From the IMG/VR virus record IMGVR_UViG_3300030060_001229, positions 393-24,279 of that record: a stretch of DNA of 23,887 nucleotides. The stretch is one strand, 5' to 3'. Under the pieces are notes generated by a model. That model saw nothing but the letters and a program-made list of their open reading frames with translations, was not told the origin of the DNA and searched no databases. Both the position numbers and the translations under genes were made by a program. This DNA is from a virus. Positions 21,366-23,700 of this stretch are shown here, in pieces. The number at the start of each line of letters is the position of its first letter. The first letter of the stretch is position 1.

Positions 21366-21420
21366 ACTTTCAGATTCTAATGATGTTAAATAGTATTTTC
21401 TCTGGGGAGAGTGGCTGAAA

Positions 21421-21590
21421 TTGTCTCATTCCTTGTAATCACGCTCCAGAACATTGATTTGGTATGGGACAAGTGGTTGGGACAAGTATAATTGTCTCAC
21501 GATCCAAAAACAATGGGACAATCTATCTTGTCTCACATAGTTGTCCCACCGAAACTAACTGGTATAACTACGATTCTTCCAATGGGACAA
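21421..21590. repeat. Mirror-symmetric array of eight TGRGACAA boxes (candidate origin or operator)
   Basis: Boxes on the + strand: 21465, 21478, 21514, 21583. On the - strand: 21421, 21492, 21528, 21541. Each is TGGGACAA or TGAGACAA. Start-to-start distances are 44, 13, 14, 22, 14, 13, 42 and strand order is - + + - + - - +, so the whole array is its own mirror image about 21506, to within one base. The last box lies inside the primase-helicase gene. Such clusters next to a replication gene are typical of iteron origins or of repressor sites. Confidence 0.8.
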
Positions 21591-23700
21591 GATATGTACC
21601 CTCTCCACACGCGAGGATAGCTTTATAAGACTTATTAGAAGCTTCATTTTCTATCAGTTCGATAAGACCTTTCTTAATTAATCTTTGGAACGATTTTCTT
21701 ATCGCAGCATCTTTACCATCAACCATTGGATCGTGAATCATCTGATTAATCGTATAAGTTTCTGGATGAATCTTTCTTAACTTCTGTAAAACTTTATCTT
21801 GAACAGTTGTAGGAGATTCACTATCGTTAGAAACTTCTGGAGTGTAATCAGCTATAGAGAATGTAAGGTCATCATTCATCTTCATAACCATCTGAGTTCC
21901 CATTCTTCCAGACCTAGATTTTTCAATCGTAATAAATCTACTGGAGCGACCAACCTTATTTACCTGTTCCTGAGTTGGCTTAGATAGTTTCCAAGTTTCA
22001 TCAACAGCATCTCTGATAGCAGATGTTCCTCTAAATCCACCATTTTTATTAGCGTGATGAATTATAAGGATTGTTGTCTTAGGAAAGAGGACACCATTAT
22101 TTCTGGTTAACCAATATAAAGGTTGAGCAAAATCTGATTTGTTTTCATCAAAAGCTCTACCACCACTACATCCAATAAGAGAGTCGATAACAACTAACTT
22201 AGGAGTATGTTCCTGCATTAATTTAATGAACTGAGCATATCTCTGTAACTGCCAATCAGTTTGAATTTTTACATTGCTAGTAACAGGAAGGTTGACTTCT
22301 TCAAGTTGTTCTTTTAGCTGAGATAAAGGTTGATCTCCATTAAGTAAAAGAACAGTACCCTTATCAACTGGAACTTTGCTGCCTCTAACAAGGAAAGGAT
22401 CTCCAGTAGCAATATGTTTTGCCATAGTCCAAGCACTCATGGATTTACCATCACCACCAGCACCATAAATAAGAACAACTGAAGGAGTAGGAAGAATGTC
22501 AGGTATCAAATATTCTCTTTGAATATCTAAAGCATAAAGGTCAGCCAAATCTAAAATACCTTTTTGGCTTTCATATTGAATTTGATCAACAATAAGTTTC
22601 TCCAAAGATGATTGATCTCTATAGCCAGCTTTCAATGCCAAAGTATTTAACTTGTAGTTCATCTCAGCAGGGTTATCCAACTCAAGAATATTTTTGGCAC
22701 GTTTAATTACATCACCAAAATCAAGAGTAGAAGTTCTAATTTCTTGAACCTGTTTATCTTCAGCTTTACTAACAATCTTTTTGTTCTCAGCAGAAAATCT
22801 ATGTCTTTCAGGATCTTCTCTATCGGCCAACCAGATTAAAGTACCTAAACCAATACCACCACTTTTAAATGAATACCAAGCAGTAGTGCAGGGAGTATCG
22901 TGATCTCCTGCTTCTTCCCATTCTCCTGCAAAGTCAGGATCTTGAGATGACCAGAAAGACCATAATGCTAAACCCATTTCACTAGGAAGGGCAGAATGAA
23001 TTGCCATTCCAACTTTGACCCAATGTTCTCTGCTACCTAAACCCTGATGAGATATAACGGAAAGACATTCATGGATGATCTGAGCAATCTCATCTTCAGT
23101 TCTATCACTAAAATCTAAATCTTTTTTATTTTGTACTGGTTTTGGAGGAGCTTTCATCTCAGCCAATAACCAAGCAGGAGCTACAGGTATATTTGAAAGA
23201 TCACCAGTTAATTCATAGAATCCTTCTTCTGAACTATGTCCACCTGGGTAAGCACCATAGATAACACCTTGTCTTCTTCCCCAAAGTATTTCATAATTAC
23301 CACCTTCTTCTTTACGAAGGCCATGCCCTTTAACATCACCCCATAAAACCTCTGGAACAGTAAAGACATACTTTGCTGCATCTTTTTTAGTAGAAGTGAT
23401 CTTAGGGGCACCTATAAGTGTTTCAGACCATTTTCTTTTTAATACTGAATGGTCTTTATCAATATCAAGAATTACGATACCTTTTCCTCTTATACCTGTA
23501 TAAAGGCCAACAGCTTGCAGGTCAGGATTCTTGTCTATTGCTAGTTCTAAGTCGTGATTATCAAAATCTCTTTCCCATGATTCTTCTAAAGGATTTTTAC
23601 CAGTTGCCTTACGGCCTGATTTCATCGGAGCATCTTTTTTATATATTGGAGCGTAAACTAGGTTCTCAGGTAGAGTCTTGACGAAATTAATAATTGTCAT
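21568..23700 (-). CDS. Prim-pol primase / RepA-type helicase
   Basis: 710 residues. Residues 1-185 are a bifunctional primase-polymerase domain: GLYTGIRGKGIVILDIDKD places metal-binding Asp79 and Asp81, with a later GRRQGVIYGAYPGGHSS and FYEL block. Residues about 202-295 match a PriCT-2 type primase C-terminal domain (SREHWVKVGMAIHSAL, ALWSFWSSQ, WYSFKSGGIGLGTLIWLA). Residues about 400-600 are a RecA-like ATPase: Walker A GAGGDGKS (413-420), Walker B KLVVIDSL (501-508), a sensor strand ILIIHHANK and RGTSAIRDAVD (557-566). A winged-helix-like end follows. It likely primes and unwinds DNA at the phage or episome origin. Its promoter and a 5' hairpin lie upstream and the box array overlaps its 3' end. 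Confidence 0.9.
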   Translation of the reverse strand: MTIINFVKTLPENLVYAPIYKKDAPMKSGRKATGKNPLEESWERDFDNHDLELAIDKNPDLQAVGLYTGIRGKGIVILDIDKDHSVLKRKWSETLIGAPKITSTKKDAAKYVFTVPEVLWGDVKGHGLRKEEGGNYEILWGRRQGVIYGAYPGGHSSEEGFYELTGDLSNIPVAPAWLLAEMKAPPKPVQNKKDLDFSDRTEDEIAQIIHECLSVISHQGLGSREHWVKVGMAIHSALPSEMGLALWSFWSSQDPDFAGEWEEAGDHDTPCTTAWYSFKSGGIGLGTLIWLADREDPERHRFSAENKKIVSKAEDKQVQEIRTSTLDFGDVIKRAKNILELDNPAEMNYKLNTLALKAGYRDQSSLEKLIVDQIQYESQKGILDLADLYALDIQREYLIPDILPTPSVVLIYGAGGDGKSMSAWTMAKHIATGDPFLVRGSKVPVDKGTVLLLNGDQPLSQLKEQLEEVNLPVTSNVKIQTDWQLQRYAQFIKLMQEHTPKLVVIDSLIGCSGGRAFDENKSDFAQPLYWLTRNNGVLFPKTTILIIHHANKNGGFRGTSAIRDAVDETWKLSKPTQEQVNKVGRSSRFITIEKSRSGRMGTQMVMKMNDDLTFSIADYTPEVSNDSESPTTVQDKVLQKLRKIHPETYTINQMIHDPMVDGKDAAIRKSFQRLIKKGLIELIENEASNKSYKAILACGEGTYLVPLEES

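Follow-up and report, generated by a model that had tools for sequence, protein, structure and literature searches.

The window analysed here, a stretch of 23,887 nucleotides, is part of a virus record of 29,405 bases in which tail genes lie on the plus strand. The features of interest lie in and beside a primase-helicase gene on the minus strand (Table 1). The 710-residue product matches PriCT_2 and AAA_25 in Pfam and primases in PHROGs, and its sequence includes a GIVILDID stretch, which we take to be as expected of an archaeo-eukaryotic primase. The ATPase part has a RecA-type fold and is nearest to RSF1010 RepA, the closest solved structure, and to the DnaB-type helicases. The C-terminus (residues 633-694) is predicted to form three helices and a two-stranded wing, with a predicted recognition helix at residues 664-676 that contains R668. 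Modelled alone, this part resembles winged-helix domains with modest confidence (pLDDT 65.6), and confidence in the full-length model is moderate (pTM 0.47).

Table 1. Features of the box array and the primase-helicase gene (positions in the window)
Feature	Position	Strand	Evidence
Flanking GGAGAG, mirror partner of 21601-21606	21406-21411	+	Sequence; flank conserved
Outer box TGAGACAA	21421-21428	-	Exact match; position conserved in relatives
Second conserved element CTGGAGCGTGATTA in outer arm	21436-21449	-	Sequence, conservation
Inner box TGGGACAA	21465-21472	+	Exact match; position conserved in relatives
Inner box TGGGACAA	21478-21485	+	Exact match; position conserved in relatives
Inner box TGAGACAA	21492-21499	-	Exact match; position conserved in relatives
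Inner box TGGGACAA	21514-21521	+	Exact match; position conserved in relatives
Inner box TGAGACAA	21528-21535	-	Exact match; position conserved in relatives
Inner box TGGGACAA	21541-21548	-	Exact match; position conserved in relatives
Primase-helicase gene, 710 aa: primase part, PriCT_2, RecA-type AAA_25 ATPase, C-terminal winged helix	21568-23700	-	
Outer box TGGGACAA, within last primase-gene codons	21583-21590	+	Exact match; position conserved in relatives
Flanking GGAGAG	21601-21606	-	Sequence; 5' flank conserved in most relatives
Predicted winged helix, residues 633-694	21619-21804	-	AlphaFold2 model; winged-helix structure matches
R668 codon, residue changing with boxes	21697-21699	-	

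At the 3' end of this gene lies an array of eight TGRGACAA boxes, all of them exact, which the first-pass annotation had described as a mirror image; its positions, strands, spacings and centres were all reproduced exactly. The strand order is - + + - + - - + with spacings of 44, 13, 14, 22, 14, 13 and 42 bases from box to box, the inner six boxes being centred on 21506.5 and the outer pair on 21505.5. The mirror extends outward past the boxes to a pair of GGAGAG motifs centred on 21506. As in iteron origins, there are several copies of a short box beside the putative initiator gene; however, the boxes are not the direct repeats of such origins, as they follow this mixed order in steps of 13-16 and about 44 bases. 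Beyond these eight the window holds no exact copy of TGRGACAA, whilst a first-order Markov model expects 2.1 per window and gave at most two within 170 bases in 300 simulations.

Relatives were gathered by searching viral contigs with the primase, yielding well over 150 loci; about 160 distinct viral loci share the layout, placed as here at the 3' end of this primase-helicase gene. The eight-box layout follows the primase in nearly all relatives in which the 3' end is present; it runs outer box, 41-46 bases, plus box, 12-14 bases, plus box, 13-16 bases, minus box, and is then mirrored across a central gap of 20 to 109 bases. The distant relatives have six boxes (minus, 43-45 bases, plus, 26-29 bases, minus, a gap of 19-52 bases, mirrored), a form equivalent to the eight-box layout with one box removed from each half. 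As one or other of these mirrors the layout persists down to about 44-60% primase identity. At four loci with the recognition-helix motif (L043, L136, L145 and L146) the full layout was not found at the threshold used. In a geometry search blind to box sequence, which scored eight self-similar 7-mers, the eight-box relatives mostly reached 46-56 of 56, against at most 31 in 40 shuffles. Box order in related phages had been proposed as a check at the outset; the relatives kept the same order, where missing or randomly ordered boxes beside the same primase would have spoken against the first-pass interpretation.

The boxes are better conserved (98%) than the spacers between them (89%). A second conserved element, TGGARCGNGATYW, lies between the outer and inner boxes in the arrays of most lineages. 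One locus (L224) carries a 56-base insertion in the central spacer in comparison with its sister arrays, and all eight of its boxes are intact. The distance from the start of the array to the primase stop codon ranges from 19 to 319 bases according to lineage, such that most of the array is non-coding in certain lineages and all of it lies inside the primase frame in distant relatives, with the layout intact either way. A stop codon 19 bases from the array start and one more than 250 bases from it leave the array equally in place, and it is therefore selected as DNA.

Within one locus the boxes share nearly one sequence, whereas lineages differ, with TGGGACA, TAGGACA, GGGGACA, CTGGACA and TGCGACA among the forms found. 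Between lineages the box letters thus shift in concert on an unchanged geometry, which is the pattern a single sequence-reading protein would impose. Among 691 primase columns, R668 ranked first for association with box class. In a tree from which the last 110 primase residues were left out, the first box letters change on four branches, these being the only independent box changes, one of them assigned by grouping the mixed-box row L155 with L157. R668 is the only one of 684 columns that changes on all four, three times to K (with GGGGACA) and once to Q (with CTGGACA), out of a total of seven changes (p 1.5e-5, against 0.02 for the next best column; with 684 columns corrected for, p is about 0.01). 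N652, the column ranked second, falls within the same winged-helix domain. An independent-pairs test on the tree did not reach significance, the pairs being too few.

The pairing of residue and box is such that R is found with TGGGACA or TAGGACA, K with GGGGACA, and Q or H with CTGGACA. It can be followed between close relatives, as L157 has K and GGGGACA whereas L158 and L159 have R and TGGGACA, and the one clade that carries Q672E, likewise in the predicted recognition helix, has boxes of the form TGYGACA. Three loci break the rule: in L154 and L155 K goes with TGGGACA or with mixed boxes, and in L235 it goes with TGCGACA. Because every one of the four box-change branches also sees a change at R668, a residue of the predicted recognition helix, this comparison of sequences indicates that the primase-helicase very probably reads the boxes.

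We therefore consider it likely, with a probability of about 0.8, that the array is the replication origin of a tailed phage, recognised by two facing complexes of the primase-helicase that the phage itself encodes; that the protein physically binds the boxes, that the site acts as an origin, that rings are loaded and that initiation takes place on both sides is what we infer from the arrangement. Each box would be one site for the C-terminal winged helix, and two equivalent half-arrays (outer box, about 44 bases, plus box, 13, plus box, 14-16, minus box) would face each other. Given that the half-arrays face one another, two enzyme assemblies would be loaded head to head around the central spacer, where they would open the DNA and then prime synthesis. 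Rigid halves about a variable centre likewise suggest two facing assemblies. The first-pass annotation had thought an origin likely next to the primase, and had raised the idea of facing protein complexes; an origin-like site does lie beside the primase and is inherited together with it, and the palindromic layout suits such complexes. Its remark that neighbouring boxes would face different sides of the helix is arithmetically correct for steps of 13-14 bases.

GC skew had been named as a further check on an origin and gave no support here, as in two 41-42 kb relatives, G004 and G005, the skew runs in one direction genome-wide with no sign switch at the array, unlike purely bidirectional replication. 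Unidirectional or later rolling-circle replication is therefore possible. In both genomes (L249-L251, L253-L255) the sign of the skew is constant over nearly the whole genome whatever the direction of the genes, which suggests strand-asymmetric replication. The record ends overlap by 127 bases in G005 (L249-L251) and by 55 bases in another relative, G001 (L246-L248), which makes it probable that both genomes, of about 41-42 kb, are complete. Among the products of G001 is an ArdC-like anti-restriction protein.

A self-binding initiator acting at an iteron-like origin is a known principle, of which the mirror array would be a fresh form. The alpha protein of phage P4 joins several activities, primase and helicase among them, and binds the repeats of its own origin through its winged helix (PMC4234260). 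The protein described here resembles it in having, by predicted structure, a C-terminal winged helix on a primase-helicase. However, P4 has a Toprim-type primase, whereas here the Pfam (PriCT_2, AAA_25) and PHROG matches point to a PriCT_2-linked primase with a RecA-type helicase, and the boxes form a strict mirror; the comparison carries no claim of common descent. Another primase-helicase with a C-terminal winged helix is ORF904 of pRN1, a plasmid whose origin follows the gene immediately and has yielded no binding motif, and the phage BIP-1 primase-helicase has PriCT_2 (PMC4234260). The C-terminal winged helix is common to ORF904, BIP-1 and, by predicted structure, the present family, which also shares PriCT_2 with BIP-1, and the position of the array fits that of the pRN1 origin. 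However, pRN1 combines an SF3 helicase with a stem-loop, whereas here a box array is combined with a helicase of RecA-type fold (Pfam AAA_25).

In RSF1010, RepA, RepB' and RepC are separate proteins, of which RepC binds the oriV iterons (PMC4234260). RepA is a RecA-type hexameric helicase, and the helicase of our family is RepA-like and RecA-type; in both cases helicase, primase and origin would work together; RSF1010, however, uses three proteins and RepC-bound iterons in place of one protein and inverted boxes. No separate RepC-like binder is indicated here, as the winged helix that covaries with the boxes forms part of the helicase polypeptide, and one chain would combine the tasks of RepC (binding), RepA (unwinding) and RepB' (priming). 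The core origin of SV40 is a palindrome of boxes read by large T antigen as two facing hexamers (PMC3493471). In both systems the helicase itself would read short boxes set in a palindrome; the resemblance is confined to layout, as the proteins are unrelated and SV40 has four boxes in a 64-base core.

Fusions of primases to RepA-family helicases are already known as InversePrim (PMC5862659), which share this combination but differ in domain order. CyRepA1 plasmid replication proteins match the primase part of the family weakly (about 27% identity), and CyRepA differs in the type of helicase (PMC10079941); a simple repeat scan of pANS CyRepA1, S-CBS4, S-EIV1 and MW202711 revealed no such array. 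The PrimPol of cyanophage S-2L was discarded as a relative, having neither a profile match nor such an array. No paper describing the array or its boxes was found in the open-access literature searched, and the box strings themselves gave unrelated papers only.

The boxes could instead be an operator at which the primase-helicase or another phage protein regulates transcription, either of the primase or of the small genes downstream of it, an explanation we regard as improbable. The array sits between co-directional genes and is usually followed by a small ribbon-helix-helix-like gene, mostly 350-1400 bases past the recognition-helix codons. However, 22 array-bearing loci with 1.5 kb or more of downstream sequence lack this gene, the best column of its product ranks 23rd where R668 ranks first, a promoter scan found no sigma-70-like promoter at the array, and the array is placed at the 3' end of the primase gene, or wholly inside it in the distant relatives. 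The ribbon-helix-helix-like protein was consequently rejected as the box binder in spite of its presence near the array in most loci, and with it the earlier suggestion of an operator for the small minus-strand genes. Primase autoregulation may be an additional role of the array.

Less probable again is that 21465-21548 acts as structured DNA or RNA in the form of a large hairpin, as has been proposed for pRN1-type origins. The three-tier hairpin of the first-pass annotation can indeed be drawn, the strand folds better than shuffled sequences (DNA fold z -2.4), and in pRN1 a stem-loop of 100 bases, situated immediately after the primase-helicase gene, is required (PMC4234260). However, the would-be paired boxes show no covariation and are no more alike than unpaired ones (identical in 0.46 of cases in comparison with 0.51 expected, p 0.92), and a mismatch in both local stems is kept by nearly all of the close clade. 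On the strength of the box-pair comparison the hairpin was set aside as the conserved unit. Searches of the array against Rfam and for tRNAs, promoters and terminators gave nothing.

A packaging site (pac or cos) recognised by the small subunit of the terminase is the least likely of the alternatives. The TGGGACAT boxes of an enterobacterial prophage set do lie directly upstream of a Nu1-like small terminase gene, but covariation singles out the primase and in G001 (42.5 kb) the large terminase gene is about 12 kb from the array. A DNA-pattern search blind to protein placed the half-array, among the matches listed, at this primase family or in two other contexts, namely upstream of the small terminase gene in enterobacterial prophages and in the contig L283. 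The former comprise at least about 34 lambda-like prophage contigs among the matches listed (L256:3600-3830, L258-L265, L271-L273 and others), with TGGGACAT boxes in both orientations, directly upstream of the Nu1-like gene in L256; this is probably a packaging-site array of independent origin. The latter (L283:769-930), a high-GC contig, has TGGGACA boxes in part of the array geometry after a different RecA-like ATPase gene.

Returning to an origin read by facing primase-helicases, the lengths of the central gaps tend to fall close to multiples of about 11 bases (R 0.76; p 0.003 with a free period, p 0.02 at 10.5), a periodicity that should be considered as a lead only, because the independent values were chosen by hand and gaps of 36-37 and 45 do not fit. 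It is a tentative proposal, and one that may well prove wrong, that a phage primase-helicase of RepA/DnaB (RecA) type assembles by itself on a mirror origin, as two rings that face each other, in the manner of SV40 T antigen and without a separate binder or loader, the halves being spaced near whole helical turns.

A large group of uncultured phages thus gains a defined candidate origin together with its candidate initiator, and a one-residue recognition code that is open to in vitro testing. The geometry of the array, with two rigid halves about a variable centre, directly predicts facing complexes. The system offers a compact model in which a RecA-type helicase is perhaps loaded at an origin without the need for a separate binder or loader.
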